Made by a program: the position numbers and the translations under genes | Shown: positions 6,921 to 36,866 of the stretch, in pieces | Layout: every line of letters starts with the position of its first letter | Position numbering within the stretch: position 1 is the first letter of the stretch | Virus record (IMG/VR): IMGVR_UViG_3300028925_010123 | Span: 1-39,509 of that record | DNA length: 39,509 bases | Origin: a virus | Reading direction: 5' to 3' (one strand) | Notes under the pieces: generated by a model | Told to the model about the DNA's origin: nothing | Seen by the model: only the letters and a program-made list of their open reading frames with translations | The model's database searches: none

Positions 6921-6942
6921 TAGAATTAAACAAAACATATAA
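6909..6942 (+). repeat. 34-bp direct repeat, copy 2 (methyltransferase junction)
   Basis: Perfect copy of 6121-6154. It carries the GTGA stop/start overlap between methyltransferases A and B. Identity at DNA level in a fast-changing phage implies a recent duplication, ongoing gene conversion, or recombination between the copies. Confidence 0.9.
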
Positions 6943-7720
6943 TGAGAATTGTTTAGAAACAATGAAAAGAATACCAACACATACGGTAGACTTAACCATT
7001 ACTTCACCGCCATACGATAATTTAAGAGATTACAATGGATATGATTTTGATTTTGAGGAAATAGCAGATGAACTATACAGAATTACAAATCCAGGTGGAG
7101 TTGTAGTTTGGGTTGTAGGTGATGCTACTATCGATGGTAGTAAAACAGGAACATCATTTAAACAAGCACTTCATTTTAAAGAAATTGGGTTTGATATGTA
7201 TGATGTATTTATTTATGAAAAGAGTGGAACAGCACCACCACATAAAAATAGATATTTCAACGCTTTTGAATATATGTTTGTTTTTTCAAAAGGAAAACCA
7301 AAGACAACTAACTTACTGAAAGACAAGAAAAACAAATATGGTGGGACACAAACATTTGGAGATGTAACGAGGAGAGAAAAGGACGGAACACTTACGAACA
7401 AAGGTAGAAAAACAATCAATGAGTTTGGTATTAGAACAAACATTTGGAAATATAATAATGGGAAAGGTTTTACTACAAAAGATAATATTGCATATCAACA
7501 CCCTGCAATATTTCCAGAAAAATTAGTTCAAGACCATATGTTGAGTTGGAGTAATGAGGGAGATATCGTATATGATTGTTTTATGGGAAGTGGAACAACC
7601 GCAAAAGTAGCGATTGAAAACAATAGAGATTATATCGGTAGTGAAATATCAAAAGAATATTATGACATTATACAGAAAAGATTAGAACCATTAAAAGTTT
7701 GGGATAAGTTTGGTGGGTAG
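6917..7720 (+). CDS. DNA methyltransferase, SPPY type, tandem paralog B
   Basis: Sister of the preceding gene. It has TSPPYDNLRDY at residues 29-39 and FMGSGTT at 222-228, and the shared C-terminal end EPLKVWDK. The start is GTG 6917, fused to the previous stop as GTGA. The central region carries a different, lysine/glycine/threonine-rich segment with a few extra residues compared with paralog A; this is where beta-class enzymes of this size hold target recognition. I infer that the pair methylates two different short sequences. Its last 8 bases overlap the small gene at 7713. Confidence 0.85.
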   Translation: MIELNKTYNENCLETMKRIPTHTVDLTITSPPYDNLRDYNGYDFDFEEIADELYRITNPGGVVVWVVGDATIDGSKTGTSFKQALHFKEIGFDMYDVFIYEKSGTAPPHKNRYFNAFEYMFVFSKGKPKTTNLLKDKKNKYGGTQTFGDVTRREKDGTLTNKGRKTINEFGIRTNIWKYNNGKGFTTKDNIAYQHPAIFPEKLVQDHMLSWSNEGDIVYDCFMGSGTTAKVAIENNRDYIGSEISKEYYDIIQKRLEPLKVWDKFGG

Positions 7721-7901
7721 AAAAAGAAAATATCATACCGATAAAGAAAGACGAGAAGCCCAAAGAAAGTGGCAAATGGAACATTATTTACGCAATAAAG
7801 AAGAAATTAAAGAAAAAGCACGACAAAGATATCGTGAACAAAAAAGAAAAGACATTTATGAAAAAAAAGTTAACGATTTGTATGGGGACATTGATATTTA
7901 A
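7713..7901 (+). CDS. Small, highly charged helical protein, 62 aa
   Basis: No firm function. Almost half the residues are Lys, Arg or Glu, with a repeating RR-x-Y / KEEIKEKARQRYREQ pattern predicting one long helix or coiled coil. Similar charged segments occur at the N-terminus of phage HNH-type proteins, but no nuclease motif is present here. GTG 7713 overlaps the methyltransferase stop by 8 bases, the same spacing as other junctions in this genome; TTG 7710 is the alternative. Its place directly after three methyltransferases could mean a DNA-binding helper, but that is a guess. Confidence 0.6.
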   Translation: MGRKRKYHTDKERREAQRKWQMEHYLRNKEEIKEKARQRYREQKRKDIYEKKVNDLYGDIDI

Positions 7902-7913
7902 TATAAGAAGGTT

Positions 7914-9281
7914 ATGAGCAAAAACGAATCACTAATACAATATGGAACATCTTTCCAATCAAAAATCATATCATCGTTATTGGTAAACAATAAGTTTATC
8001 CAAACCGTATATGATATCTTAGAAGTTAGTTACTTTGATAGTGACGCTAATAAATTTCTAATCACAGAAATCAGAAGATATTTTGACAAGTATAAAACAC
8101 CACCTACGATGGAAGCATTGAAAGTGCAGATTGATGACTTGGATAACGATGTAATGAAGACAGCAATCGTAGATAGTTTAAGAAATGCTTGGAACTTCAG
8201 AGAATCACCAGACTTGGAATTCGTTCAAGAAAAAACATTAGAGTTTTGTAAGAATCAAGTTATCAAGGGTGCAATTATGCAATCAGTTGAGTTATTGGAT
8301 ACACAAAAGTATGATGAAATCAAAGGTGTAATTGACAACGCAATGAAAGCCGGAGCCGAAAGAGATATCGGACACGAATATATGACTGGCTTTGAAGAAC
8401 GAATGAGTTCATCAACGAGAGAAACCGTAGCAACCAAATGGGATAGTATAAATGATTTAATGGAAGGTGGATTAGCAGGTGGAGAACTTGGAGTAGTAGT
8501 GGCACCAGCAGGTATTGGTAAATCGTGGACACTACAAGCAATCGGAGCAGACGCAGTCGCTAAAGGTAAAACCGTAATCCATTATACATTAGAGTTAAAT
8601 GCAGAATATGTAGGATTACGATATGATTGTATCGTAAGTGGACAACCTACTGGCAATTTACAATACTATAAAGAAGAAGTTTTAGCTAAAATAAATAAAT
8701 TAAAGGGTAATTTGATTATCAAATATTATCCAACCAGAAGTGCAAGTGTTGCAACATTGGCAGGACACCTACAACAATGTGAATTACAAGGTATAAAACC
8801 AGATATGGTATTGGTTGACTATGCAGATATTATGAAGTCTACGGTCAATTTCAAAGAAAAAAGACACCAAATTGGACACGTTTATGAAGAACTAAGAGGT
8901 ATGGCAGGAGAGTTTAACATACCGATATGGACAGCTTCACAAGCAAATCGTTCATCATTAGAGGAAGATGTGATTGACGCATCAAAAGTTTCAGAAGATT
9001 ATTCAAAAGTTATGACAGCTGATTTTATTATGAGTATGTCAAGAAAAGTGGAAGACAAGATAGCAAACACGGGTAGATTCCACGTTATTAAGAATAGATT
9101 TGGACCAGATGGATTGACCTTTCCAGCTACCATTAATACCAATACAGGTTACATTCAAATATATGAAGCCAACACTCAAGAAGGAAAGCAAGCACAAGGC
9201 AAAATGGACAATGCAGAAGAGTATATGAGAAAAACCTTAGCACAAAAAAAGAAAGACTTCGACTCAGAAGGGTTTGAATAG
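7914..9281 (+). CDS. 41: Replicative DNA helicase, T4 gp41 / DnaB-like
   Basis: Hexameric 5'-3' helicase of the replication fork. The N-terminal 150 residues form a DnaB-N-like helical domain. The RecA-like motor follows, with Walker A APAGIGKS at 197-204, the H1a-like glutamate in HYTLELNAEYV, Walker B MVLVDYAD at 298-305, and the downstream TASQANRS (H3-like) plus a C-terminal KNRFGPDG segment typical of the arginine-finger region. The 455-aa length matches gp41 (475). It is read from ATG 7914 behind a purine-rich AGAAGG. No gp61-like primase was seen in the window. Confidence 0.87.
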   Translation: MSKNESLIQYGTSFQSKIISSLLVNNKFIQTVYDILEVSYFDSDANKFLITEIRRYFDKYKTPPTMEALKVQIDDLDNDVMKTAIVDSLRNAWNFRESPDLEFVQEKTLEFCKNQVIKGAIMQSVELLDTQKYDEIKGVIDNAMKAGAERDIGHEYMTGFEERMSSSTRETVATKWDSINDLMEGGLAGGELGVVVAPAGIGKSWTLQAIGADAVAKGKTVIHYTLELNAEYVGLRYDCIVSGQPTGNLQYYKEEVLAKINKLKGNLIIKYYPTRSASVATLAGHLQQCELQGIKPDMVLVDYADIMKSTVNFKEKRHQIGHVYEELRGMAGEFNIPIWTASQANRSSLEEDVIDASKVSEDYSKVMTADFIMSMSRKVEDKIANTGRFHVIKNRFGPDGLTFPATINTNTGYIQIYEANTQEGKQAQGKMDNAEEYMRKTLAQKKKDFDSEGFE

Positions 9282-9316
9282 AACTTCAAAGAAAATCTTT
9301 CTAAAACTTCAAAGAA
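9282..9316 (+). repeat. Two 12-bp direct repeats in the leader of the reductase gene
   Basis: AACTTCAAAGAA occurs at 9282-9293 and again at 9305-9316, 23 bases apart start to start (about two helical turns), in the 118-base gap before the ribonucleotide reductase. A perfect TATAAT follows at 9324-9329, with no good -35 box. The arrangement suits activator or repressor binding next to a promoter lacking a -35. A second TATAAT lies at 9356-9361. Confidence 0.4.
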
Positions 9317-9399
9317 TTTAAAATATAATAGAATAAGATGAGTATATATTATACTTATAATAGGAACAAAAAGACAGACAAAACATAGGAGAGTTTCAA

Positions 9400-11391
9400 G
9401 TGAAATTTAAGTTATCAGAAAATTTTATCAGTAAGTATAAAAGGAAAAAAGCACCATTTGGTTTTAACGGATTAGGCGAATTAGTCTATATGAGAACATA
9501 TTCAAGACTTAAAGAAGATGGGAAGAACGAGCGTTGGTGGGAAACCGTTCAACGAGTAGTAGAGGGAACATATTCAATGCAAATGAATCACATTGAATCA
9601 CACCAATTAGGTTGGAATCCTTGGCAAGCACAGAAATCTGCACAAGATATGTATGATAGAATATTCAATATGAAATTCTTACCACCAGGTCGTGGTTTAT
9701 GGGCTATGGGAACAGCAATCACAGAAGAAAAAGGATTGTATGCAGCACTAAACAATTGTGCTTTTGTATCAACGAAAACACTTAAAGAAGATTTAGCAAA
9801 ACCATTTTGTTTCTTAATGGACGCCTCAATGTTAGGAGTTGGAGTAGGATTTGATACTAAAGGAGCGGGGGAAGTTCTCGTTAAAGAGATTGATAAGAAA
9901 AGAGATTCAGTTACATTTGAAATACCAGATACTCGTGAGGGTTGGGTAGAATCACTTAGACTTTTATTAGAAAGTTACTTTCACGGAACACAAAGAGTTG
10001 AGTTTGATTATTCATTAGTTAGACCAGCAGGAGAGCCAATCAAGGGCTTTGGTGGTGTATCAAGTGGACACGAACCATTAGAAGAAGTTCACGAAGATAT
10101 CAGAAAAGTATTAGAGGGTAATGCAGGAAATCCAATTACAATAACAACAATCGTAGATATAATGAATTTGATTGGTAAATGTGTTGTAGCAGGTAATGTT
10201 AGACGAACAGCAGAAATTGTATTCGGTGACCCTGATTCAGATGAATACTTAGATTTAAAGAATTATAAAGTAAATCCACATAGAGACCAATATGGTTGGA
10301 CTTCAAACAATTCAGTATTTGCAGAACTCGGTATGGATTATACCGAAATAGCAAAAAGAATTGTAGATAATGGAGAACCTGGTCTTGCTTGGTTAGAAAA
10401 TATGAGACATTATTCAAGAATGAAAAATGGTGGTGATAACAAAGACCATAGAGTAATGGGTGGTAATCCTTGTTTAGAACAATCACTTGAATCATATGAG
10501 TTATGTTGTTTAGTGGAAACATTTCCAGACAACCACGATTCATTTGAGGATTATCAAAGAACATTAAAATATGCTTATTTGTATGCAAAAACCGTGACAT
10601 TAGGAAGAACACATTGGTCAGATACCAACAGAGTTATGTTGAGAAATAGACGAATAGGTTGTTCAGTAAGTGGTGTCGCACAATTTATAACTAATCGTGG
10701 TTTAGATACTTTAAAGAATTGGTTAGAAGATGGATATGATACAATACAAGAATGGGATAAGATGTATAGTGATTGGTTCGCAGTTCCAAGAAGTATTAAA
10801 ACAACATCAGTAAAACCAAGTGGTACGGTTTCTCTATTAGCAGGAGCAACACCTGGTTTACATTATCCAGAATCAAGATTCTATACAAGAAGAATTAGAA
10901 TATCAGTTAATTCAGAACTAATAGAACCATTAAATAAAGCAGGTTACACGATAGAGCCAGCATTCGGTTCAGAAGACTCAACATTAGTTGTTGAGGTGCC
11001 AGTAGATGTCGGTGAAGGAATAAGAACTGCAAAAGATTTATCAATATGGGAACAATTTAGTTTGGCTGCATTTATGCAACGACATTGGGCAGATAACCAA
11101 GTTAGTTGTACTGCAACATTTGACCCTGAAACAGAAGGTCAAGAGATACCGCATGTATTGAATTATTATCAATATCATTTAAAAGGTATATCGTTACTAC
11201 CAAGACACGATTGGGGAGCATATCCACAAATGCCTTATGAAGCTATTGATGAAAAGACATACAATAAGAATGTTAAAAAACTTGGTAAATTATCATTTGG
11301 TGTGATTAAGAACGAAGAAGCAGAAGTTGATAAGTTTTGTAACAATGATTCTTGTGAATTACCAGGTTTACCAGATGTAGAAGAAAATTAG
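9400..11391 (+). CDS. nrdJ: Class II (adenosylcobalamin-dependent) ribonucleotide reductase
   Basis: Makes deoxyribonucleotides from ribonucleotides using a coenzyme-B12 radical. The monomeric RTPR-type layout is visible. The substrate-site cysteine pair is Cys120 (ALNNCAFVS) and Cys369/370 (YELCCLVE), the radical Cys358 and Glu360 lie in GGNPCLEQS, and the C-terminal CxxxxC shuttle pair is Cys647/Cys652. The 663-aa length is a little shorter than Lactobacillus RTPR (739). No small subunit gene is near, as expected for class II. GTG 9400 is supported by AGGAGAG at 9387-9393. T4 itself uses a class I enzyme, so this phage depends on the host for B12 but not for oxygen. Confidence 0.88.
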   Translation: MKFKLSENFISKYKRKKAPFGFNGLGELVYMRTYSRLKEDGKNERWWETVQRVVEGTYSMQMNHIESHQLGWNPWQAQKSAQDMYDRIFNMKFLPPGRGLWAMGTAITEEKGLYAALNNCAFVSTKTLKEDLAKPFCFLMDASMLGVGVGFDTKGAGEVLVKEIDKKRDSVTFEIPDTREGWVESLRLLLESYFHGTQRVEFDYSLVRPAGEPIKGFGGVSSGHEPLEEVHEDIRKVLEGNAGNPITITTIVDIMNLIGKCVVAGNVRRTAEIVFGDPDSDEYLDLKNYKVNPHRDQYGWTSNNSVFAELGMDYTEIAKRIVDNGEPGLAWLENMRHYSRMKNGGDNKDHRVMGGNPCLEQSLESYELCCLVETFPDNHDSFEDYQRTLKYAYLYAKTVTLGRTHWSDTNRVMLRNRRIGCSVSGVAQFITNRGLDTLKNWLEDGYDTIQEWDKMYSDWFAVPRSIKTTSVKPSGTVSLLAGATPGLHYPESRFYTRRIRISVNSELIEPLNKAGYTIEPAFGSEDSTLVVEVPVDVGEGIRTAKDLSIWEQFSLAAFMQRHWADNQVSCTATFDPETEGQEIPHVLNYYQYHLKGISLLPRHDWGAYPQMPYEAIDEKTYNKNVKKLGKLSFGVIKNEEAEVDKFCNNDSCELPGLPDVEEN

Positions 11392-20940: not shown

Positions 20941-21435
20941 ATGTCAACACAAACAAAAATAGAAAACACACCCGATATACACTTTACATCACCGAAGTCT
21001 TGTTTCGTTGGCAATACTATGATTACACTATCAGACGGAACATATATAAAAATAGAAGATATTAAGATTGGTGATAAGGTTAAATCTTATGATATGGAAA
21101 CAGAAAAATTAAAAAATTCAATAGTAGAGGAAATATGTACACCAATATATGAGAATATAATTGAATATGCATTTCGTGATAATACAAAAATACAATGCAC
21201 AGACGACCATCCAATCTATCCCTTCTGGACTAAAAATAAGGGTTGGACTTCTAAATTAGAATTGGGTGATATGGTATTTATGCCAGTAGAAAATAAATTT
21301 ACAGAATTAATTGGTTATACACCAATAAAAACTGATGGGGTACAAACTTACAATTTGGGTAAGTTAAACAATAATTACAATTATTTTATAAATAGGATTT
21401 TAGTCCACAATTATCATCTCTTATCGCAGAAATAA
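20941..21435 (+). CDS. Stand-alone Hint (intein-like) domain protein
   Basis: A 164-aa protein that is almost entirely a mini-intein-like fold. Splicing block A begins at Cys21 (CFVGNTMITLSDGT), followed by IEDIKIGDKVKSYD. Block B TDDH is at 87-90, and block F/G is NYFINRILVHN ending at His156-Asn157. Only 20 residues precede it and 7 follow it (YHLLSQK). The residue after Asn157 is Tyr, not the Cys/Ser/Thr needed for ordinary splicing, which resembles type-A bacterial intein-like (BIL) domains that cleave or splice in other ways. No homing endonuclease is present. It has its own upstream motif but only a weak ribosome site. What the short flanks do is unknown. Confidence 0.75.
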   Translation: MSTQTKIENTPDIHFTSPKSCFVGNTMITLSDGTYIKIEDIKIGDKVKSYDMETEKLKNSIVEEICTPIYENIIEYAFRDNTKIQCTDDHPIYPFWTKNKGWTSKLELGDMVFMPVENKFTELIGYTPIKTDGVQTYNLGKLNNNYNYFINRILVHNYHLLSQK

Positions 21436-21920: not shown

Positions 21921-22318
21921 TGGCGATTAAAGACGCACCTACAAGAGTTATTGATGATGTCGGTCAAGAATATGACCCGACAGGTGTCGTTGGATATATG
22001 GAAAACAAATATCCCGAAATGACACAAGAATTTAGAACTATACAACAAGAACAATACGAATTGTTCTTACACAAACAACACGACTACGGCCCACAAAATG
22101 TGGCAGTTGGTTCATTGTTGAAAACCAAAGAAGATATTAAGTTATCGTTGTTGGGTTTATGGTTTAGAATACAAGACAAGACAGAAAGAATTAAAACTCT
22201 ACTGATGAGAGATGATAAAAACTCAGTTCAAGATGAATCAGTAGTGGATAGTTATAATGACATATCAGTATATGGAGTTATGGCACAAATAGTATCGAGG
22301 GGCAAATGGGCAAAATAG
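21920..22318 (+). CDS. Nmad1 / DUF1599-like protein (nucleotide-modification associated)
   Basis: Carries the pattern of this family: HKQHDYGPQNVAVG (about 51-64), then a charged helix LGLWFRIQDKTERIKTLL and QDESVVDSYNDISVYGVMAQ (about 104-123), the conserved Asp/Glu face. The fold is small and all-helical. Members occur in phages beside DNA-modification genes, and their biochemical role is not settled. Here it fits with the Mom-like protein and three methyltransferases. The ATG overlaps the preceding stop by one base; the stop overlaps the next gene by 13. Confidence 0.62.
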   Translation: MAIKDAPTRVIDDVGQEYDPTGVVGYMENKYPEMTQEFRTIQQEQYELFLHKQHDYGPQNVAVGSLLKTKEDIKLSLLGLWFRIQDKTERIKTLLMRDDKNSVQDESVVDSYNDISVYGVMAQIVSRGKWAK

Positions 22319-23133
22319 GAATTATAGGACAAGGATATGTAGGTAGTGCCATTAAAGTTGGTTTTGAACCACATTATACAGTATCAACATATGATAAATA
22401 TGACTTGAGTAAATCAACACATAGTAAATTATCTGATGTAGTAAAGAACTCAGATGTTATATTTGTATGTGTTCCGACACCAATGAAGAAAGACGGAACT
22501 TGTCATACCGATATCGTAGAGGATGTCGTTAGTGAAATTAATGAATGTGGTAAGGGGCAAGTCGTAGTGATTAAATCTACTATTCCACCTGGCACAACTG
22601 ATAGATTACATAGAAAATACAAAAACATTGATGTTATATTTAATCCAGAGTTCTTAACTGAAGCAAACTTTATTGATGACTTCAAGAATCAAAACAGAAT
22701 TATATTGGGTGGTATTCGTAGAGGAACTACAAAACTAAGACAAATATATTCTAAAGTATTTCCACACGCAACAATCGTTAAGACAGGTGCTAAACACGCA
22801 GAAATGGTAAAGTATTTTACTAATTGTTTCTTAGCAACCAAAGTATCATTTGCAAACGAAATGAAATACATTTGTGATAGTATTGATTTAGATTACGATA
22901 AAGTAGTGGAGTATGCGACATATGATGAAAGATTAGGTAAATCACATTGGGGTGTTCCAGGTCCAGATGGAGATTTGGGTTTTGGTGGACATTGTTTACC
23001 AAAGGATTTATCAGCAATGATTAATGAATTTGAAACATTAGGATTATTAGAAGCAGTTGAACAAGTCAATGACCAAGTTCGTGAGAATAGAGATTGGGAA
23101 ACGATGAAGGGTAGAGCAGTAATAGATGGGTAA
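22306..23133 (+). CDS. UDP-glucose/GDP-mannose dehydrogenase family, shortened
   Basis: NAD-dependent oxidation of a nucleotide sugar to its uronic acid is the family reaction. The Rossmann motif GIIGQGYVGSAI is at 4-15, VFVCVPTP at about 51-58, KSTIPPGTTD at 89-98, and the catalytic-cysteine block GFGGHCLPKD at 225-234 (Cys230). The protein stops at 275 aa, whereas UDP-glucose dehydrogenases have about 390-450; the C-terminal sugar-nucleotide-binding domain is missing, so activity, dimer form or substrate may differ. GAGGGG at 22297-22302 supports ATG 22306. It lies apart from the main sugar cluster, between modification and nuclease genes. Confidence 0.78.
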   Translation: MGKIGIIGQGYVGSAIKVGFEPHYTVSTYDKYDLSKSTHSKLSDVVKNSDVIFVCVPTPMKKDGTCHTDIVEDVVSEINECGKGQVVVIKSTIPPGTTDRLHRKYKNIDVIFNPEFLTEANFIDDFKNQNRIILGGIRRGTTKLRQIYSKVFPHATIVKTGAKHAEMVKYFTNCFLATKVSFANEMKYICDSIDLDYDKVVEYATYDERLGKSHWGVPGPDGDLGFGGHCLPKDLSAMINEFETLGLLEAVEQVNDQVRENRDWETMKGRAVIDG

Positions 23134-25092: not shown

Positions 25093-26517
25093 ATGGAATT
25101 ACCAAAATTAAAAAAAGTTACAGAAGTTAAAAAGAAAAAGATTATGCTACTATCAGACGATTTACGTATGTCAAGTGGTGTCGGTACAATGTCAAGAGAG
25201 ATTGTAATGGGAACCCTTAATGAGTTTGATTGGGTTCAAGTTGCAGGTGCAATAAAACATCCAGATGCGGGTAAAGCAATTGATATGTGTGATAGTGCCA
25301 GAGAAGAAACAGGTGTTGAAGACGCATATCTAAAACTATATCCAGTATCAGGTTATGGTAGTCAAGATATATTGAGAGAATTATTACAAGTAGAAAAGCC
25401 AGATGCTATTCTACACTACACAGACCCAAGATTTTGGAAGTGGTTATATGATATGGAACACGAGTTAAGACAAACAATTCCTATATTCTATTATAATATA
25501 TGGGATGACTTACCTTATCCTATGTGGAACGAACCATTTTACGAAAGTTGTGATTTGATTATGAATATTTCAAAGCAAACGCACAATATTGTTCAAAATG
25601 TTTGTCTTGATAAACCAAGAACAGATTGGGATTCAACTTATGTTCCACACGGAATAAATGAAAAATATTTCTATCCAGTTGATAATAAAAAAGAACAATT
25701 GGAAATGAATAAAATGAAATCAGAACTATTTCAAGGTAAAGATTTAGATTTTGTTTTATTTTACAATAATAGAAATATCAAAAGAAAAATGACTTCTGAT
25801 GCTATCTTAGCATTTAGAGAATTTGCATACAATTTACCAGAAGAAAAGAGAAAAAAGACTGCATTTGTTCTACATACACAGCCAAAAGACCAACACGGAA
25901 CAGATTTACCTGCAGTTGTAGAAGCAATGTGTCCAGATTTGAACATAATATTCTCAACACAAAAACTTTCCAATCAACATCTAAATTATCTATACAACAT
26001 AGCAGATGTCACAATCAATATCGCATCCAATGAGGGATTCGGATTAGGAACGTGTGAATCATTGATGTGCGCAACACCAATTATTGTTAATGTTACAGGT
26101 GGATTACAAGACCAATGTGGATTTAGATTAAAAGATAAATTCATTACTTATAAAGATTATGCAGATGTTGAAACACTACACGATTGGAGAAAGTGGGAAA
26201 ACAATGAAGATTTAACTCACGGAGAGTGGGTAAAACCAGTATGGCCGAGAAGTCGTTCATTACAAGGTTCAATTCCAACACCTTATATCTTTGATGATAG
26301 AATTGATTATATTGATGTATCAGAAAAAATTAGAGAATGGTATGATATGGATAAAGAAGAAAGAGAATCTTGTGGTAGAGAAGGATATGAATTTGTTTGT
26401 GGAGATGACTCAATGATGAGTGCACGATGGATGTGTAAGAACTTTGAAGACCATATGAATACAGCATTTGATAAGTGGACACCACGAAAACGATTTGAAA
26501 TTATAGGGGTTAAATAA
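25093..26517 (+). CDS. Glycosyltransferase, GT-B fold (GT4-like), 474 aa
   Basis: Retaining-type sugar transferase using a nucleotide sugar. After a basic N-terminus comes IMLLSDDLRMSSGVGTMSREI (17-37), the typical glycine-bearing first loop. The donor-site E-x7-E motif is ASNEGFGLGTCESL (Glu314 and Glu322). VPHGINEKYFYP (184-195) and HTQPKD lie in the expected order. No membrane segment, so cytoplasmic. Acceptor unknown: lipid-linked glycan, protein or modified DNA base are all possible. It is followed with a one-base overlap by a second GT-B enzyme, and the two share general layout but not close sequence. Confidence 0.8.
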   Translation: MELPKLKKVTEVKKKKIMLLSDDLRMSSGVGTMSREIVMGTLNEFDWVQVAGAIKHPDAGKAIDMCDSAREETGVEDAYLKLYPVSGYGSQDILRELLQVEKPDAILHYTDPRFWKWLYDMEHELRQTIPIFYYNIWDDLPYPMWNEPFYESCDLIMNISKQTHNIVQNVCLDKPRTDWDSTYVPHGINEKYFYPVDNKKEQLEMNKMKSELFQGKDLDFVLFYNNRNIKRKMTSDAILAFREFAYNLPEEKRKKTAFVLHTQPKDQHGTDLPAVVEAMCPDLNIIFSTQKLSNQHLNYLYNIADVTINIASNEGFGLGTCESLMCATPIIVNVTGGLQDQCGFRLKDKFITYKDYADVETLHDWRKWENNEDLTHGEWVKPVWPRSRSLQGSIPTPYIFDDRIDYIDVSEKIREWYDMDKEERESCGREGYEFVCGDDSMMSARWMCKNFEDHMNTAFDKWTPRKRFEIIGVK

Positions 26518-27833
26518 TGAAACCATTAGTATTAGTATCAGCACCAGTAAGAACAAGAAGTGGGTATGGAAATCACTCACGAGATATTTGTCAAGCACTA
26601 ATTCAATCGGATAAATATGATTTGAGAATACAAGCACTTCGTTGGGGAACAACACCAATGAATGCATTAGAAGTGGATAATCCAGTTCATCAAGAGATTG
26701 AGAAGAGAATTTTAATACAAGCAACTATGGAAAAACAACCTGATGTTCATTTACATATTGTTGTTCCGAACGAATTTCAACCAATAGCTAAAAAGAATAT
26801 TGGAATCACAGCAGGTATTGAACATACGGTTCCACCAGCAAGTTGGTTTGATGGAATTAATCGTATGGACTTGACAATACTAACATCTGAATTTTCAAAG
26901 TCTGGATTTGCAGAAACTACATTTGATAAGGTTGATAATAAGACAAAGAAAGTTGTCGGTATAGTAAAAGTAGAAAAACCATTAGATGTATTATTTGAGG
27001 GAGCAGACCCTGAAATATATAAACAAACAGCAGAATTATCAGATGATATGAAAGAAGAATTTTCAAAAATAGATAATGACTTTTGTTTTCTTTATGTAGG
27101 ACATTGGTTACAAGGTAAATTAGGTGAAGACAGAAAAGATACGGGTATGATGTTGAAAGTATTCTTAGAAACATTCAAAGGTATGAAAGATAAACCAGCA
27201 CTAATTATGAAAACAAGTGGAGCAGGATTTTCTATCATAGATAGAAGAGATATACTTGAAAAAATAGATTTAATTAAACAGAATGTCAAGTCAGATGATT
27301 TACCAGATGTATATTTATTACACGGAGACTTAACTGATGAAGAAATGAATCAAATGTACAATCATAAAAAAGTAAAGGCACATTTGACATTTACTCACGG
27401 AGAGGGATTTGGAAGACCATTGTTAGAAGCATCATTTAGTGGAAAACCAATTATAGCACCAATCTCAACAGGTCAAGCAGATTTCTTAGATAAAAATTAT
27501 ACTGTGGAAATACCACATATAATGACAAAAGTTCCAGGAGGAGCATTTCCAAAGGAATATCATAATCCAGAAGCTCAATGGTCTACGGTAAATTATGGTA
27601 TTGCAAGTAAACTTATGAGAGATGTCCATAAGAACTACAAAAAATATGAACTTAAAGGTAAAAAGCAGATGATTGTAAATAGACAAATGTTTACTCACGA
27701 TAAAATGAGTAAGAAATTGATATCTATTGTTGATAAGATGTTAGAGAGTGTTCCACAACCAGTAAAGTTAAAGATACCAAGTCTAACAAAAGAACCAAAG
27801 AAATTAAAATTACCAACATTAAAAAAGGGATAA
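26517..27833 (+). CDS. Glycosyltransferase, GT-B fold, 438 aa
   Basis: Second GT4-like enzyme. The N-terminal VSAPVRTRSGYGNHSRDICQAL (7-28) is the acceptor-side loop; VLFEGADPEIY follows mid-protein; LTFTHGEGFGRPLLEASFSGKPIIA carries the E-x7-E donor motif. The C-terminal 30 residues are a Lys/Pro/Leu repeat-like tail (KLKIPSL, KKLKLPTL), unusual for the family and perhaps a docking or nucleic-acid-binding tail. Its ATG shares one base with the previous stop (TAATG), so the two transferases are made together and may act in sequence. Confidence 0.78.
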   Translation: MKPLVLVSAPVRTRSGYGNHSRDICQALIQSDKYDLRIQALRWGTTPMNALEVDNPVHQEIEKRILIQATMEKQPDVHLHIVVPNEFQPIAKKNIGITAGIEHTVPPASWFDGINRMDLTILTSEFSKSGFAETTFDKVDNKTKKVVGIVKVEKPLDVLFEGADPEIYKQTAELSDDMKEEFSKIDNDFCFLYVGHWLQGKLGEDRKDTGMMLKVFLETFKGMKDKPALIMKTSGAGFSIIDRRDILEKIDLIKQNVKSDDLPDVYLLHGDLTDEEMNQMYNHKKVKAHLTFTHGEGFGRPLLEASFSGKPIIAPISTGQADFLDKNYTVEIPHIMTKVPGGAFPKEYHNPEAQWSTVNYGIASKLMRDVHKNYKKYELKGKKQMIVNRQMFTHDKMSKKLISIVDKMLESVPQPVKLKIPSLTKEPKKLKLPTLKKG

Positions 27834-29484: not shown

Positions 29485-30262
29485 AAATTTAATCTATATG
29501 ACGGCAGTCAATCACGATACCTCAACATACAGAAATTCAGACTATGCTAAATACTCTAAATTAAGTTGGAAATATTGGTGTAAAAGAAACAATATAGACT
29601 TTATAGTCATTGATAAACACCATCCAAGATATAAATTCCCAGTTTGGAATAAAGATACGATTTTCGACATTGTCGGTGATACTTATGATAAAATAGGTTA
29701 TGTTGATAGTGATACTATGGTTCATTGGAACGCTCCTAATCCATTTGACTTATATACAGATGAATGGTGTTGGGTTAGAGATTACGCAAATTTAAGATGG
29801 ACAACAGAAAGTATAAATAATTACCAAAGGTTTTATCCTAATCAAACATTAGACATTTATGATTATTATAATTCAGGTGTAAGTTTCTTTACTAAAGAAC
29901 ATAAACCTATATTTGACAATTTAATTAAGTTGTATGAAAACAATTCAGAAGAATTGGATAAATGTGCAACTATGGGTGGTGGAAAAGTTCAAACATTATT
30001 AAATTTTGAATTACAAAACCACGACATTAAAATAAAAGAGTTATCACCACAATGGAATATGTTTTCAATGCACAAACGAGAAATGTTTAGTCACAATTGG
30101 CAAGATGGTGAAGATAAAACACCACATTTTATTAAATATAGTTGGATATGGCACTTTACAGGCTTTCCAATAGAAGATAGAACAAGAATTATGAAAGATA
30201 CTTGGAAAGTAATACAAAATAAATATTTCCCAGAAAGTGATGAAGGTAAATTTGATGGATAA
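29477..30262 (+). CDS. Glycosyltransferase-like protein, GT-A fold with DSD motif, paralog A
   Basis: The 261-aa protein has a nucleotide-sugar-transferase layout: KNLIYMTAVNHD at the start, the DxD metal motif in IGYVDSDTMVHW (about 73-84), YYNSGVSFF in the middle and WIWHFTGFP (about 224-232) near the end. The pattern resembles GT8-type enzymes. The next gene encodes a recognisable relative with the same landmarks in the same order, so the pair arose by duplication. No signal peptide or membrane segment. Sugar and acceptor unknown. Confidence 0.68.
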   Translation: MSKNLIYMTAVNHDTSTYRNSDYAKYSKLSWKYWCKRNNIDFIVIDKHHPRYKFPVWNKDTIFDIVGDTYDKIGYVDSDTMVHWNAPNPFDLYTDEWCWVRDYANLRWTTESINNYQRFYPNQTLDIYDYYNSGVSFFTKEHKPIFDNLIKLYENNSEELDKCATMGGGKVQTLLNFELQNHDIKIKELSPQWNMFSMHKREMFSHNWQDGEDKTPHFIKYSWIWHFTGFPIEDRTRIMKDTWKVIQNKYFPESDEGKFDG

Positions 30263-30995
30263 AAATATTGTATTTATAATCGCAGTCAAGAAAGATGGAC
30301 AACTCAAACCAGAGTATGAAATCGGTATAGAGAGTTGGAGAAGATGGTGTAAGAAAAATGATGTTGATTTATTTTTATTAGAAGACCCAATTCTACCAAT
30401 GGAAGATATGCATATTATCTGGCAAAGGTATTTCTTATTTGATATTTATGATGCTAATAAAATTAAAGCAAATCAAACATTACTTGTGGACGCAGATACA
30501 ATAGTTCATCCTGATTGTCCAAACTTCTTCAATGAAACAGAAGACAAGTATTGTTTAGTTCACGATGACGGAAGTTATGATTGGGTATTGAGAGGTATGG
30601 AACACTATAAAAAAAGAGTGTATGATACAGAGTGGTTTAATTATTGGGAGTATGGGAATAGTGGATTCCAAATAGTTAATCAGAAGCATAGAGGGTTTTT
30701 TGAGTATATGAGAGAGTTTTATTTTAAAAATATAAAAGAAATTAATTTTATACAACAAAGTTATGGAATTGGAACAGACCAAACACCATTGAACTTCAAT
30801 CTGAGAGCGCAAGATGTTGATGTGAAGTTATTGGGATACAAATATAATATGGGTTGTATGTTAAAGAAAGAGATATTAGCAGAAGATATGTTATTTACAA
30901 AATTAGGTTGGGTATATCATTTCAATGGATTACCAAACAAAGACACAACGGTTCCACATTGGATGGAAAAAACATTTAGGTATTTATATGGTTAA
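30255..30995 (+). CDS. Glycosyltransferase-like protein, GT-A fold, paralog B
   Basis: Related to the preceding protein: KNIVFIIAVKKDG opening, TLLVDADTIVHPDCP (DxD) near residue 80, YGNSGFQIV in the middle and GWVYHFNGLPN near the end. 246 aa from ATG 30255, chosen because GAAGG (30242-30246) lies 8 bases upstream; upstream in-frame starts lack one. It overlaps the paralog's stop by 8 bases and the next gene by 8. Two neighbouring related transferases usually add successive or alternative sugars. Confidence 0.68.
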   Translation: MDKNIVFIIAVKKDGQLKPEYEIGIESWRRWCKKNDVDLFLLEDPILPMEDMHIIWQRYFLFDIYDANKIKANQTLLVDADTIVHPDCPNFFNETEDKYCLVHDDGSYDWVLRGMEHYKKRVYDTEWFNYWEYGNSGFQIVNQKHRGFFEYMREFYFKNIKEINFIQQSYGIGTDQTPLNFNLRAQDVDVKLLGYKYNMGCMLKKEILAEDMLFTKLGWVYHFNGLPNKDTTVPHWMEKTFRYLYG

Positions 30996-32691
30996 AGTTC
31001 ACTTAATAGGTTATGGAAAATGGGGAGCAGTGATTGATAATGCTATCAATGATTTAAATGTCAAATGGGTAGAACCAAAAGACGCAGATTGGATTATCAT
31101 ATCAACACCAAACGATTTACACTATGAGCAGGTTGCTTATTGGTTAAGTAAAAAGAAAAATGTATTCGTGGAAAAACCATTGACACTAAGTTATGATTCA
31201 GCAAAAGAATTATTTGATTTTGCAGATACTATGGGTGTAAAATTATATGTAGATGATATATTTGCTTGGAGAGATGATTACGATATATATGATGATGTAA
31301 ATCATTTCGTTTGGACTAAACCTAACCAGAAAGATAAGAATTACATTGATAGATTAGCATATCATCACTTTTATATGTGGGTTCGTGATACTGACTTTGA
31401 AATAGAGAGTATTACGGGTGAAATAAATGATTTCAAAATAGAATTACAAGACGGAAGAATTGCAGAGTTCTTTTATGGGGATAGTTCTGAGGTTGTTCAT
31501 TATGTTAACGAAGATGATATGGCACATAATCAAAACAATCCATTAAGAACAATGTTTGAACTTTTATTTCAATATTCAAATGATATCAGAATAAGTGACA
31601 TAAATAGAAAATTAACATTAAATGCAACCAAACTATCAGAACAAGTTAGAAAAACATTATTACCAAAAGCATTAGTTGTGGGTGGGGGAATCTTCGGAAC
31701 AACAGCAGCAGTAGCATTATCACATAATGGATATCAAGTAGAATTACACGAAGAACTTGAAGATGTGATGATGGCAGCATCAGATATTAATCAATACAGA
31801 TTACATAGAGGTTATCATTATCCACGAAGTAAAGAAACTGCACAAGAGTGTTTAGATGGATTGAAAACATTTAAAAGAAAGTATGAACATAGCGTAGTCA
31901 ATGGAAACATAGAACATTACTATGCAATATCATCAAAGGAATCTATGACAACACCAAGTCAGTATCTTGAATTTTTAAATGAAATGGACTTACCATACGA
32001 AAAAGTTGATTCATTACCAAATACAGATATCACATTAAAGGTTGAGGAAGAGTTATTTGACAATTATGGATTGTATGACGCAGTCAGAAGTAAATTGTGG
32101 AGTAGTGGTGTAGATGTTCAAAGGAATAGAACTACCACTAAAGATGATTTCAAGAATTATGATGTAGTTGTAGTGGCAACTTACGCAAAACTAAATGATT
32201 TACTCGACAATAAAAAGGAATATCAGTTTGAAGTGTGTGAAAAGCCAGTCGTTAGATTACCACGAGAATATGAAGGTAAGAGTATTGTCGTAATGGACGG
32301 CCCATTTATGTGTTTAGACCCATATGGACAAAAAAATCACGTATTGGGTAATGTAGTTCACGCAATCCACGAAACAAATATTGGTGAAGAGCCAATCGTA
32401 AGTAAAGAATTAAAACAATATCTAAACAAAGGTGTAATAGAAAAACCAAAGCACACCAACATAGATAAATTTATTAAAACAGGTAAAAGATTTTTCAAAG
32501 ACTTTGACAAACTAAAACACATAGGTTCAATGTATACCATTAGAACCGTACAAAAAAATAGAGAGCACGACGACGCAAGACCTACCTTAGTTAATCACGA
32601 GGGTGGAAATGTTTATAGTTTATTTTCAGGTAAAATAGATACTTGTGTTGACGCAGCAAACGAACTAATAAGGAGATTACAAGGTGATTAA
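30988..32691 (+). CDS. Fusion: Gfo/Idh/MocA-like dehydrogenase + FAD-dependent oxidoreductase
   Basis: A single 567-aa reading frame holds two redox modules. Residues 1-225: NAD(P)-binding VHLIGYGKWG (4-13), STPNDLHYEQVAYWL, then the family EKP motif at 62-64 and a helical C-terminal part. Residues 226-567: the FAD-binding ALVVGGGIFGTTAAVALS (228-245; G-G-G-I-F-G at 232-237) of the DAO-like group, followed by RLHRGYHYPRS and a long C-terminal domain. The usual MocA beta-sheet half is shortened. I start at ATG 30988 (TTAGG at 30976-30980, 7 bases upstream). The two steps could act in sequence on one sugar. This combination is unfamiliar to me. Confidence 0.75.
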   Translation: MVKVHLIGYGKWGAVIDNAINDLNVKWVEPKDADWIIISTPNDLHYEQVAYWLSKKKNVFVEKPLTLSYDSAKELFDFADTMGVKLYVDDIFAWRDDYDIYDDVNHFVWTKPNQKDKNYIDRLAYHHFYMWVRDTDFEIESITGEINDFKIELQDGRIAEFFYGDSSEVVHYVNEDDMAHNQNNPLRTMFELLFQYSNDIRISDINRKLTLNATKLSEQVRKTLLPKALVVGGGIFGTTAAVALSHNGYQVELHEELEDVMMAASDINQYRLHRGYHYPRSKETAQECLDGLKTFKRKYEHSVVNGNIEHYYAISSKESMTTPSQYLEFLNEMDLPYEKVDSLPNTDITLKVEEELFDNYGLYDAVRSKLWSSGVDVQRNRTTTKDDFKNYDVVVVATYAKLNDLLDNKKEYQFEVCEKPVVRLPREYEGKSIVVMDGPFMCLDPYGQKNHVLGNVVHAIHETNIGEEPIVSKELKQYLNKGVIEKPKHTNIDKFIKTGKRFFKDFDKLKHIGSMYTIRTVQKNREHDDARPTLVNHEGGNVYSLFSGKIDTCVDAANELIRRLQGD

Positions 32692-33556
32692 AATAAAACA
32701 AGGTAAAAAATACTTGATAACAGGCGGAGCAGGATTCTTGGGTGGAGAATTGATTGATAGAATTCTTCAACAAGGTGGTGATGTAGTTACGGTATCACGA
32801 AATGAAGGTAAATTAATAGAATTAAAGAATAAATACAAAAGTAGAAACGGAAGAATAGAAATTCACACAGGTGATATTTGTGATGATTTCACATTACCAA
32901 GATTAATGCAAGGTATTACGGGTGTATTTCACTTGGCAGCATTTAAACACGTTGGATTAGCAGAAACACAAGGTAGAGAGTGTATTAAATCAAATGTTAT
33001 TGGTAGTATGAATGTATTGGAAGAAGCAGTTAAAAATGATGTAGAGTTCGTAGTTGGTATATCAACAGATAAAGCAGCTCAAGTTACTGGAACATATGGA
33101 GCAACCAAATATCTTATGGAAAGAATGTTTACACAATTTGAATTAGATTATCCACAAACTAAATTCAGAATAGTTCGTTATGGTAATGTATTGTATTCAA
33201 CAGGTTCAGTATTGTGTATTTGGAAAGATAGATTAGAAAAGGGAGAAGAAATTATAGTAACAGACCCTGAAGCTACGAGATACTTTTGGACATTGAACCA
33301 AGCAGTTGATTTAATATTTGATTGTATGGAAAATGCCACAACAAGTCATTTCCATTTCCCAAGTATGAAGTCAATGAGTATGGGTGATTTACTAAACGCA
33401 ATGGCTAAAAAGTATTTGCCAGAGGGTAAAGAACTTAAAGTAAAAACCATTGGATTACAAAGAGGTGAAAACCTACACGAGAAGATATCAGAAGACGGAT
33501 TGTATTCTAATGAAGCAGAACAATTTTCAATTGAGGAAATCAGGGAGTTAATTTAG
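32684..33556 (+). CDS. Nucleotide-sugar 4,6-dehydratase, PseB/CapD-like
   Basis: Extended short-chain dehydrogenase that makes a 4-keto-6-deoxy sugar from UDP-GlcNAc or a similar donor. NAD-binding GGAGFLG (14-20), HLAAFKHV (83-90), the subgroup signature STDKA (127-131) and Tyr138-x3-Lys142 (YGATK) are all intact. Length 290 aa is slightly shorter than PseB (about 330). GTG 32684 is the start, with AGGAG at 32671-32675. Product 4-keto sugar is the natural substrate for the DegT-type aminotransferase two genes on, so together they should give an amino-deoxy sugar. Confidence 0.82.
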   Translation: MIKIKQGKKYLITGGAGFLGGELIDRILQQGGDVVTVSRNEGKLIELKNKYKSRNGRIEIHTGDICDDFTLPRLMQGITGVFHLAAFKHVGLAETQGRECIKSNVIGSMNVLEEAVKNDVEFVVGISTDKAAQVTGTYGATKYLMERMFTQFELDYPQTKFRIVRYGNVLYSTGSVLCIWKDRLEKGEEIIVTDPEATRYFWTLNQAVDLIFDCMENATTSHFHFPSMKSMSMGDLLNAMAKKYLPEGKELKVKTIGLQRGENLHEKISEDGLYSNEAEQFSIEEIRELI

Positions 33557-34392
33557 TGGAAAATGTATTAATAATTGGTGGTAATAGATTTGTTGGTAAA
33601 GCATTATCAGAAAGACTATTACATAATGGAGTTCAAGTTGATGTATTCAATAGAAGTGGAACATCATCTGATGGTGTAAAGGTCATACAAGGTGATAGAA
33701 ATAAACCAGAGGACATAGAAAAGATAGACTTTACTAAATATGATTGTATTGTTGATATGTGTTTGTTCTTTGAAAGTCAGTTTGATTTGATTGAACACCT
33801 TATACCAAACGAAACTAATTATATATTTATCAGTAGTGGTGGAGCAGACGATAGATACATTGAACACTATGGTGATTATGGTATTGGTAAGAAGAAAGTT
33901 GAGTCAAGATTAGAAGAATCAGATATAAACTATAAGATAGTTAGACCAACTTATATCGTGGGTAAAGGTAATCATAGACCAAGATTGGGCTATTATATGC
34001 ATAAAATGTTAAATAGAGAACACATTGAAATAGCTGGTGATGGAAAGAATACAATCAATATAGTATTTGTTCAAGATGTAGTGAATTGTTTGGAAGAACT
34101 TATTTTCACCGATGTCAAAACTGCAGTTCAGCATCCACCAATAGAGGTAGTTGGAAGAAACATTGAAGTTATAGATTTAATCCATATATTAAAAAATTGG
34201 GTTACCATTAGAGGTTCACAAGAGAGTGAAGTAATGTTAGTTCAAGATGATGAAAATGCAATAATTTCAAAGAATAATTTTGTATTTGATAGACTTATAG
34301 GTTTATCACCATCATCATTTGATGATAGATTAAGAGATTATGTAAATTGGTATTATAAAGAAGGAGCAAAGGGTTATGGACACAATATATAG
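33556..34392 (+). CDS. NAD-dependent epimerase/dehydratase family protein
   Basis: Rossmann-type short-chain reductase: VLIIGGNRFVGKALSERLL (4-22) binds the dinucleotide, with Asn-Arg replacing the usual Thr-Gly of GGTGFIG, an accepted variant. YGDYGIGKKKVE supplies the Tyr-x3-Lys pair (near 105-109), and VRPTYIVGKGNHRPRLGYY plus INIVFVQDVV fit the substrate domain. It likely epimerises or reduces the 4-keto intermediate. GTG 33556 start, GGGAG at 33543-33547. Specificity not readable from sequence. Confidence 0.77.
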   Translation: MENVLIIGGNRFVGKALSERLLHNGVQVDVFNRSGTSSDGVKVIQGDRNKPEDIEKIDFTKYDCIVDMCLFFESQFDLIEHLIPNETNYIFISSGGADDRYIEHYGDYGIGKKKVESRLEESDINYKIVRPTYIVGKGNHRPRLGYYMHKMLNREHIEIAGDGKNTINIVFVQDVVNCLEELIFTDVKTAVQHPPIEVVGRNIEVIDLIHILKNWVTIRGSQESEVMLVQDDENAIISKNNFVFDRLIGLSPSSFDDRLRDYVNWYYKEGAKGYGHNI

Positions 34393-35539
34393 AGCAAAAC
34401 CATATATTCCAGAGGTTACACACAAATGGATATTAGGTAAATATGAGGAAATACTTCAATCAGGTGGATTGATACAAGGAAAGCATGTGGGGGATTTTGA
34501 GAAAGATGTTTGTCAAATGTTTAATGTAAAGAATGCAGTCGCAACAACATCTTGTGGAACAGGATTAGAAACCGTATTGATAGCAAGTGGTATCAAAGGT
34601 AAAAGATTTATAGTTCCAACACAGACATTTGCTGCAAGTGTAAATTGTATCATTAGAACTGGCAATACACCACTAATCGTAGATGTTGATTCAGAAACAC
34701 AATGTTTATCATTGGATATTATCAAGAAAAGTATGGAAGAAGCTGGTCAAGGTGCAATAGGTGGAGTTGTATTGGTTCATATGTCAGGTTTGATTACACC
34801 CGATATGTTAGAGATAGAAGAATATTGTAAACAAAACAATCTATTCTTATTGACAGATGACGCTCATAGTTATGGTGCTCAATTTTACAATCAATATAAA
34901 GATGAAAGAAGATGCGCTGGAACATTTGGAGACGCTGGAGTATTTAGTTTTTATCCAAGTAAAATCATCACAACAGCAGAGGGTGGTATGATTACCACTA
35001 ATGATGATGAGTTAGCAGAGAAATGTAGAGTAGTGAGAAATCACGGAACGACAAGAAATGATGGAGAGTATCAAGGATTAGATTATGGATATACTTGTGC
35101 AATGCCTTCAAGTAATTATCGTATGTCGGAGTTCCACGCAGTTCTCGGATTAGCACAGAACAAATATCTACAAAGTTTTATCGAAAGAAGAAACGAAATA
35201 GCAGATATCTACAATGAAAGATTATCAAAGGTTGAGTGGTTACAAACACCATTTAAAGATGATACAATTAAACAAACTTATTGGCAATATATTGTTAAGA
35301 TTACAGACGGAAGAGATAGAACAGAAACATTGTTAAGGTTATTAGATGAATATCAAATACCAACAGCAAATGCTTATTCACCACTATGTCACGAACAAGA
35401 AATCTATAAAGACTATCTAAGTTCTAATGGATATGAAAATTCAGAAGACTTCATCACAAAGATATTCTCACTACCAATGTATGTTGAGATGACTGATGAA
35501 CAAGTTAATTATATTTGTCGCACAATAGAAGAACTATGA
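34376..35539 (+). CDS. DegT/DnrJ/EryC1/StrS-family sugar aminotransferase
   Basis: PLP enzyme that puts an amino group on a keto-sugar nucleotide. Family landmarks: GLIQGKHVGDFE (31-42), TTSCGTGLE (57-65), PTQTFAASVN (81-90), DDAHSYGA (161-168, Asp161/162 hold the PLP ring nitrogen) and the Schiff-base lysine Lys196 in FYPSKIITTAEGGM, followed by RNHGTTR and NYRMSEFHAVLG. The 387-aa length is complete. It overlaps the epimerase by 17 bases and is followed as ATGA by the WbqC-like gene. Partner of the 4,6-dehydratase in making an amino-deoxy sugar. Confidence 0.88.
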   Translation: MDTIYRAKPYIPEVTHKWILGKYEEILQSGGLIQGKHVGDFEKDVCQMFNVKNAVATTSCGTGLETVLIASGIKGKRFIVPTQTFAASVNCIIRTGNTPLIVDVDSETQCLSLDIIKKSMEEAGQGAIGGVVLVHMSGLITPDMLEIEEYCKQNNLFLLTDDAHSYGAQFYNQYKDERRCAGTFGDAGVFSFYPSKIITTAEGGMITTNDDELAEKCRVVRNHGTTRNDGEYQGLDYGYTCAMPSSNYRMSEFHAVLGLAQNKYLQSFIERRNEIADIYNERLSKVEWLQTPFKDDTIKQTYWQYIVKITDGRDRTETLLRLLDEYQIPTANAYSPLCHEQEIYKDYLSSNGYENSEDFITKIFSLPMYVEMTDEQVNYICRTIEEL

Positions 35540-36219
35540 TAGTATCAATTCATCAACCAAATTATTTGCCCTGGTTGGGATTCTTCGATAAGATAAAACG
35601 AAGTGATATATTTGTTGTGTTTGATGATGTTCAGTTCCCACGAGGAAAGAAACATTTCGGACATAGAAATCAAATCAAAACCAATACGGGAACAAAATGG
35701 TTGACGGTTCCAATCAAGAATAAATCTGATATGGTATCGTTCAATGAAACGATTATAAATGATGATACGGATTGGCACAATGAACATTGTAAACAAATAT
35801 CAAATCATTATTCTAAATCACCATATTTTATGGACTATTTTATGACCATAAATGATATCATTTGTAAACAACATAACTCACTAACAGAACTATCAGTTGA
35901 GTTAATCAGATACTTTATGAAAGAACTAAACATAGATACCGAAATAATATATTCATCACAACTTAATCCAAGTGGATTTGGTTCTGAAAAGATATTCAGT
36001 ATCTTGGAAAACCTAAACGCAACAGAATACATAACAGGTTCAGGTCCAGGTTCACAAAGATATATAAACGAAGAAGCTTTTGGAAGAAGAAATATTAATC
36101 TACAATGGCAAGACTATGTGTGTAAAGAATATAATCAGTTATTTGGAGATTTCATACCATATTTATCAGTAGTAGATTTATTATTTAATCACGGAAAGAA
36201 AGCAGGAGAGGTTATATGA
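35536..36219 (+). CDS. WbqC-like family protein
   Basis: Starts IVSIHQPNYLPWLGFFDKIKRSD, the characteristic opening of the WbqC family; FDDVQFPR and NRNQIK-type segments follow (here HRNQIKTNTGTKWLTVPI) and YITGSGPGSQRYI lies in the last third. The family is found in O-antigen loci, often beside sugar aminotransferases; its biochemical role is thought to be acyl or amino-acid transfer to an amino sugar but is not firmly established. The start is ATG 35536 (ATGA overlap), 227 aa. Context here matches bacterial loci exactly: aminotransferase, WbqC, then deacetylase. Confidence 0.85.
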   Translation: MIVSIHQPNYLPWLGFFDKIKRSDIFVVFDDVQFPRGKKHFGHRNQIKTNTGTKWLTVPIKNKSDMVSFNETIINDDTDWHNEHCKQISNHYSKSPYFMDYFMTINDIICKQHNSLTELSVELIRYFMKELNIDTEIIYSSQLNPSGFGSEKIFSILENLNATEYITGSGPGSQRYINEEAFGRRNINLQWQDYVCKEYNQLFGDFIPYLSVVDLLFNHGKKAGEVI

Positions 36220-36866
36220 ATGTAATGGCAATCGGAGCTCATCCAGATGACATAGAATTTGGTTGTGGTGGAACTTTAATCAAACACAAAGACAATGGAG
36301 ATAAAGTTATCTATGTATGTATGACTGATACAGAATCAGTTGATGCTACTAAAGGGAAAGTTATTCGTTCAGAATCACAATTGAAATCAGAAACACAATG
36401 TGCAGCTGATATTCTCGGAGTTGATAATATATTTTATTTACCATTTAAAGATTTACACGTTCCATTTAGTTTTGAAAGTGTATCGGCATTAGAAACATTG
36501 ATAAAACAATATAATATAGATACAATTTATACACATTGGTCAGGTGATAGTAATCAAGACCACATAGCAACATTCAAAACAACTATGGCTGCTGCAAGAT
36601 ATGTAAGAAATGTTTATTGTTATGAACAAATACCAATCCCAAGACACACAGATAATCCTATGAGAATAAATTCATACACAGATATATCAGATTCATTTGA
36701 CGATAAGATAAAAGCAGCAGAATGTCATCAAAGTCAGTTCAAGAAATACAAAGAAGCTGGATTTGATGTAACAAAAAACTTAACCACATTAGCAAAGTTC
36801 AGAGGTATTCAGGCAAATTGTCAATACGCTGAAAGTTTCCAAGTAATTAAACAAGTTGGTCTATGA
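36216..36866 (+). CDS. PIG-L / LmbE-type N-deacetylase
   Basis: Zinc-dependent removal of an acetyl group from an N-acetylated sugar. The metal site AHPDD is at residues 8-12 (His9, Asp11/Asp12) and the third ligand lies in SNQDHIATF (about 108-116). ECHQSQFKKY is also typical. Length 216 aa is normal. It is coupled as ATGA to the WbqC-like gene before it and to the next gene after it. It probably acts on the sugar or nucleotide sugar built by this cluster, exposing an amine for a different acyl group. Confidence 0.85.
   Translation: MNVMAIGAHPDDIEFGCGGTLIKHKDNGDKVIYVCMTDTESVDATKGKVIRSESQLKSETQCAADILGVDNIFYLPFKDLHVPFSFESVSALETLIKQYNIDTIYTHWSGDSNQDHIATFKTTMAAARYVRNVYCYEQIPIPRHTDNPMRINSYTDISDSFDDKIKAAECHQSQFKKYKEAGFDVTKNLTTLAKFRGIQANCQYAESFQVIKQVGL

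Follow-up and report, generated by a model that had tools for sequence, protein, structure and literature searches.

A single viral gene joins a compact Gfo/Idh/MocA dehydrogenase to an FAD-dependent oxidoreductase of the DAO fold. Both protein families are well known, and the new part is their joined architecture. The gene is found in a 39.5 kb virus record that was analysed at its full length (hereafter called the window). In cells, the FAD and Gfo genes are usually separate neighbours, which makes the viral gene a 'Rosetta-stone' fusion of a pair that is widespread in glycan loci but uncharacterised. Its main value is the functional link that it provides for this pair: the fusion indicates that two proteins encoded next to each other in many uncultivated archaea, CPR bacteria, and other bacteria, an uncharacterised flavoenzyme and a small Gfo dehydrogenase, co-operate. 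Together, the data point to an uncharacterised two-enzyme step in the making of surface sugars. The gene and its features are as follows.

30988..32691, + strand: Gfo/Idh/MocA-DAO fusion protein of 567 aa (open frame, Pfam, same fusion in viral relatives)
30988..31650, + strand: compact but apparently complete Gfo/Idh/MocA dehydrogenase domain, residues 1-221 (model, fold match)
30997..31026, + strand: putative NAD-binding glycine motif VHLIGYGKWG, residues 4-13 (G8 and G10 in 66/66 rows)
31171..31179, + strand: EKP motif, residues 62-64, with catalytic-type Lys63 (E62 and K63 in 66/66 rows)
31363..31365, + strand: catalytic-type His126 of a YHH/YHD motif (66/66 rows)
31669..32688, + strand: DAO-fold FAD oxidoreductase domain, residues 228-567 (Pfam DAO, fold match)
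31681..31698, + strand: putative FAD-binding GGGIFG, residues 232-237 (glycines invariant in 87 rows)

The fused gene and its junction

Positions 30988 to 32691 form one open frame of 567 codons plus a stop codon with zero internal stops, which bears out the original prediction that no frameshift is needed to join the domains. Between 31600 and 31720, the fusion frame alone is open, with stops in both other frames. An upstream in-frame ATG at 30925 also leaves the fusion frame open. However, 30988 is the likelier start, because 30925 lies inside the preceding gene (30237-30995), which the longer N terminus would overlap, and because, in 12 of the 15 viral loci found in our first scan for relatives, the frame stays open for no more than seven residues ahead of residue 1.

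The same architecture recurs in other uncultivated viruses that infect microbes. A scan with the family alignment, all 13 members of which match both Pfam families at E <= 0.001, yielded 74 further distinct viral loci that represent the best 80 of 99 relatives. An uninterrupted Gfo-FAD fusion is present in 51 of these 74, at identities down to ~35%. To locate Gfo partners, two profiles were used, one built from fused proteins only and a wider one built partly from neighbours that were later counted; the fused-only counts are those to trust. For the window plus the 74 loci (best 80 of 99 relatives), the fused-only profile gives 52 fused forms, 6 adjacent partners, 1 farther away, and 16 loci with none detected, and the wider profile gives 52, 8, 1, and 14, respectively.

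Such an adjacent gene pair does exist in other genomes, and two neighbouring genes could in principle be merged by a sequencing or assembly error. We assign this explanation a negligible probability. The junction is open in 52 of 75 viral loci (best 80 of 99 relatives plus the window), and these many independent contigs exclude the stop or start codon between the domains that had been named as the sign of two erroneously joined genes. In addition, the fused forms cluster on a tree of the FAD domain (87 rows, near-copies removed at 85% identity, quick search, SH-aLRT support only), where the Gfo-FAD label needs 3 changes compared to a shuffled mean of 25.7, and 0 of 500 shuffles were as low. 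The fusion is thus confirmed to be real and to be neither an assembly nor a sequencing error. In one virus (L031, 5788-9026), a radical SAM gene (6473-8002) sits between unfused Gfo and FAD genes, and the FAD domain of this virus clusters with the fused ones on the tree.

Both domains are under purifying selection. Codon comparisons of six fused-gene pairs gave dN/dS values of 0.02-0.32 in 17 of 18 regions, and the one other region, the 37-codon junction in the comparison of the window with locus L002, gave ~0.7. In a full-length structural model (pLDDT 82.8), the last Gfo helix (residues 200-224) nearly abuts the first FAD strand (residues 227-231). Because the helix ends at 224 and the strand begins at 227, a long linker appears to be absent.

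Features of the two domains

Members of the Gfo family are distinguished by a GxGxxG motif, the lysine of an EKP motif, and a conserved histidine of the second domain, with the lysine and histidine being catalytic. The first two were noticed in the original prediction, which placed an NAD-binding motif at residues 4-13 and EKP at residues 62-64 of one frame, and VHLIGYGKWG and EKP are indeed found there. Across 66 Gfo domains, both fused and separate, G8, G10, E62, K63, and H126 are invariant, and G13 is present in 65. Binding of NAD by the fused domain is likely.

The domain is nevertheless unusually small. The stretch between the glycine motif and a TP motif has a median of 33 residues in fused forms versus 55 in separate ones, such that the fused domain is ~20 residues shorter in the adenosine-side part of the Rossmann fold. 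The match to the Pfam GFO_IDH_MocA family (PF01408) is clear (8.5e-14, 52.7 bits versus a cut-off of 24), with an alignment that spans profile positions 61-118 only, and no Pfam C-domain model was matched by this half. The missing residues and the partial Pfam coverage are compatible with a catalytically dead Gfo domain that acts as a binding or docking module of the flavoenzyme. This seems improbable to us, since Gly8, Gly10, Glu62, Lys63, and His126 are retained in 33 of 33 fused rows and the full-length fold resembles those of active enzymes.

Modelled alone (pLDDT 95.7), the N-terminal half is predicted to adopt a two-domain fold with a C-terminal alpha/beta substrate domain. By fold, it appears nearest to the sugar 3-dehydrogenases/ketoreductases GnnA (7bvj_C; Z 22.8, rmsd 2.1, 218 residues aligned), GenD2 (Z 22.3), and KijD10 (Z 21.5). 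Residues 1-221 of the model cover the span of these proteins and, because this is the span of ordinary Gfo enzymes, the N-terminal half is probably a complete enzyme made small rather than a fragment. The match to GnnA cannot name the substrate, because GenD2, KijD10, and others lie within ~1.5 Z units. Assignment as an archaeal UDP-GlcNAc 3-dehydrogenase (NCBIfam NF040723) is not supported, as the N-terminal half scores 24.1 bits versus a curated cut-off of 450.

The C-terminal half matches the Pfam DAO family (PF01266; 3.8e-7, 30.4 bits versus a cut-off of 27.9). The FAD-binding GGGIFG that was predicted from residue 228 occupies residues 232-237, within ALVVGGGIFG starting at 228, and its glycines (alignment columns 10, 12, and 15) are invariant across 87 aligned FAD-domain relatives. 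Structural comparison with VIA-align gave Z scores of 26.4 to entry 3dme, 26.1 to an opine dehydrogenase (7fgp), and 26.0 to a glycine oxidase (4ysh). At the sequence level, the FAD-family profile aligns to solved structures over just 33-66 N-terminal positions, too short a stretch for us to assign DAO active-site residues in this way. According to the entry titles, the substrates of the fold relatives with solved structures are amino acids, amines, sarcosine, opines, hydroxy acids, and glycerol phosphate, and no sugars are among them. Given these substrates, which count against the sugar-directed function proposed below, the FAD half may target a substituent of the sugar rather than the ring itself.

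Gene pairs in cells and the viral sugar cassette

A scan of cellular genomes, which detects relatives bearing one of two short conserved peptides, identified 40 loci from DPANN archaea, Nitrososphaerota, haloarchaea, CPR bacteria, Chloroflexota, Actinomycetota, Prochlorococcus, and others. Here, the FAD protein is usually encoded by its own gene (~350 aa), and the Gfo gene encodes ~290 aa. A stand-alone Gfo gene lies less than 150 nt from the FAD gene in 24 of the 40 loci by the fused-only profile and in 26 by the wider profile. For two loci with overlapping open frames (L077 and L111), adjacency was judged by domain positions. Carriers of the pair include the archaeal locus L083 (FAD gene 7980-9053, Gfo gene 9089-9961) and the cultivable Catenulispora pinistramenti (L100). 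The Gfo gene of the 26 adjacent pairs is upstream in 9 and downstream in 4 in the same direction, while 12 pairs are convergent and 1 is divergent. Six further pairs are 0.7-2.7 kb apart and were excluded from the adjacent count.

This proximity is specific to the immediate neighbours. In the 38 unfused cellular loci, with mechanically called ORFs and the fused-only profile, Gfo genes fill 19 of 74 immediate-neighbour positions versus 7 of 393 positions two to eight genes away (p 2e-11, a value that ignores kinship and is uncorrected for shared ancestry). No partner was detected by the wider profile in 6 of the 40 cellular loci, one of which is a contig-end fragment (L108), nor in 14 of the 75 viral loci (best 80 of 99 relatives plus the window), which suggests that a linked Gfo protein is not essential to the FAD enzyme.

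The cellular pairs reside mostly among glycosyltransferase genes, accompanied in some cases by nucleotide-sugar dehydratases/epimerases, methyltransferases, and aminotransferases. This picture comes from 106 neighbour proteins of 16 of the 40 loci and from direct inspection of ten neighbours. A second fusion order is present in a Pacearchaeota archaeon (L091:7983-9959), where a FAD-Gfo protein of 658 aa apparently arose independently. The sole same-order fusion among the 40 cellular loci is in a Marinoscillum single-cell genome (L076) and is truncated at a contig end.

Locus L108 comes from the same Marinoscillum assembly as L076; both are contig ends and possibly are two halves of one similar fused gene. 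Four of the ten L076/L108 proteins match PHROGs (two families with no assigned function, one aminotransferase, and one methyltransferase), and none of the ten is a phage hallmark protein by PHROGs. No match to the DNA polymerase of the window was found in the L076 single-cell genome, and the locus may be either chromosomal or viral. Distant FAD homologues (~25%) are also located on Roseobacter and Psychrobacter plasmids (L117 and L118), where the surroundings include a TIM-barrel or sugar-phosphate isomerase-type protein, an NAD-dependent oxidoreductase or epimerase, GtrA or SMR proteins, and a GT2 glycosyltransferase. The Gfo profile revealed no partner on the plasmid homologue loci L116-L118.

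In the window, the fused gene is embedded among the following sugar-related genes.

25093..27833, + strand: two glycosyltransferase genes, upstream (phrog_2170)
32684..33556, + strand: polysaccharide-biosynthesis 4,6-dehydratase type SDR, PseB-like below cut-off (PF02719, 3.2e-65)
33556..34392, + strand: SDR epimerase/reductase (PF01370, 1.2e-11)
34376..35539, + strand: DegT-type sugar aminotransferase, PseC-like below cut-off (PF01041, 4.1e-91)
35515..36219, + strand: WbqC-like protein (PF08889, 2.9e-69)
36216..36866, + strand: PIG-L-type deacetylase (PF02585, 5.5e-25)

The downstream cassette also includes a DUF2334 protein (Pfam). The neighbours stay below the equivalog cut-offs of the PseB/PseC pathway to pseudaminic acid, with scores of 184.9 versus a cut-off of 407.75 for PseB and 259.9 versus 423.5 for PseC. 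Because of these low scores, and because the neighbour sets differ in other carriers, the exact pathway cannot be read from the neighbours. Farther upstream are a 164 aa ORF (20941-21435) with a weak Hint/intein-type splicing match (PF14890, 3.4e-7, below cut-off) and a 275 aa UDP-glucose/GDP-mannose dehydrogenase (22306-23133) that has the N-terminal and central domains, with the C-terminal UDP-binding domain unmatched.

Assignment of the window to a virus is supported by genes for a ribonucleotide reductase, a DNA polymerase, and a DnaB-like helicase earlier in the window. In the phage collection, this polymerase is best matched by its counterpart from Microcystis phage Mel-JY01 (44.6% identical), and a related DNA polymerase is present in 7 of the 8 viral carrier records searched, which are up to 216 kb in length.

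Proposed function and comparison with known systems

Since the gene pair is adjacent in many bacteria and archaea, both steps presumably belong to one pathway. This adjacency, the two fusion orders, and the conserved catalytic-type residues together give strong support to a functional link between the domains. We lean towards the view that the protein is a bifunctional redox tailoring enzyme of a viral sugar-biosynthesis cassette that carries out two steps of one pathway, and give it a somewhat better than even chance. The neighbours favour this assignment, being dehydratase, aminotransferase, deacetylase, and glycosyltransferases in the window and mostly glycosyltransferases and nucleotide-sugar enzymes in cells. 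The N-terminal half, as a minimal Gfo/Idh/MocA dehydrogenase, would use Lys63 and His126 to oxidise or reduce a sugar hydroxyl or ketone with NAD(P)(H), probably on a nucleotide-sugar. The DAO-fold flavoenzyme would then oxidise (or reduce) a second time, acting either on what the N-terminal half has produced or on a group that this product carries. The fusion itself probably arose when two genes of the kind found next to each other in many bacteria and archaea were joined.

Alternatively, the two halves might act at separate, non-consecutive points of one glycan pathway, with the fusion ensuring equal expression or co-location while substrate and cofactors are not shared. Unfused pairs are common and are convergently transcribed in 12 of the 26 adjacent cellular cases, and this possibility deserves weight, even though we judge it rather doubtful. 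The recurrence of strict adjacency across distant phyla and the two fusion orders suggest closer co-operation. The model argues in the same direction, because the last Gfo helix leads almost straight into the first FAD strand and the domains would therefore be held close.

The bifunctional tailoring enzyme that we prefer could also take a more specific form, in which one half oxidises a carbon of a nucleotide-sugar and hands this intermediate to the active site of the other half for re-reduction or further oxidation, all within a self-contained NAD-FAD enzyme. We regard this as unlikely; if true, it would yield a rare sugar via a new route common to archaea, CPR bacteria, and uncultivated phages. 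The sugar substrate, the order of the steps, action on the same substrate, the electron acceptor, and cofactor coupling or channelling are all matters on which we can only infer. The original prediction of a two-step conversion of one sugar with coupled cofactors is thereby supported in part, through the functional link between the domains. The viral fusion offers one expressible protein for learning the product of the gene pair, and hints at a sugar that these viruses build for themselves.

The original prediction described the architecture as uncommon, and this description holds: the fusion protein has no match in PHROGs, and among 50,697 phage records there is one weak match, to the FAD portion only. 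A search of titles and the beginnings of abstracts found no publications on a pairing of MocA with an FAD-dependent oxidoreductase, an absence that is weak given the partial coverage.

Sugar/LPS biosynthesis cassettes, as seen here, are carried by the large T4-like cyanophages P-SSM2, S-SM2, and S-SSM7, and the available sections of that report (PMC3037559) leave open whether the cassettes are functional. Unlike the window, these LPS-type clusters are described there with no mention of a Gfo-FAD fusion.

The best-scoring whole-domain fold match of the N-terminal half is GnnA, a UDP-N-acetylglucosamine 3-dehydrogenase (7bvj, 7bvk). The two are 17% identical, and GnnA has ~300 aa compared to the 221 aa of the N-terminal half, which, unlike GnnA, is fused to a flavoenzyme. 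Residues 223-567 share their fold with glycine oxidase, flavin opine dehydrogenase, NikD, and glycerol-3-phosphate dehydrogenase (Z ~24-26), at 9-15% identity to the DAO-superfamily flavoenzymes with solved structures. In contrast to those enzymes, the family of the C-terminal half has its own conserved motifs RLHRGYHYPRS, MDGPFMC, and DDARPT (87 relatives), and it sits in glycan loci, either beside a Gfo domain or joined to one.
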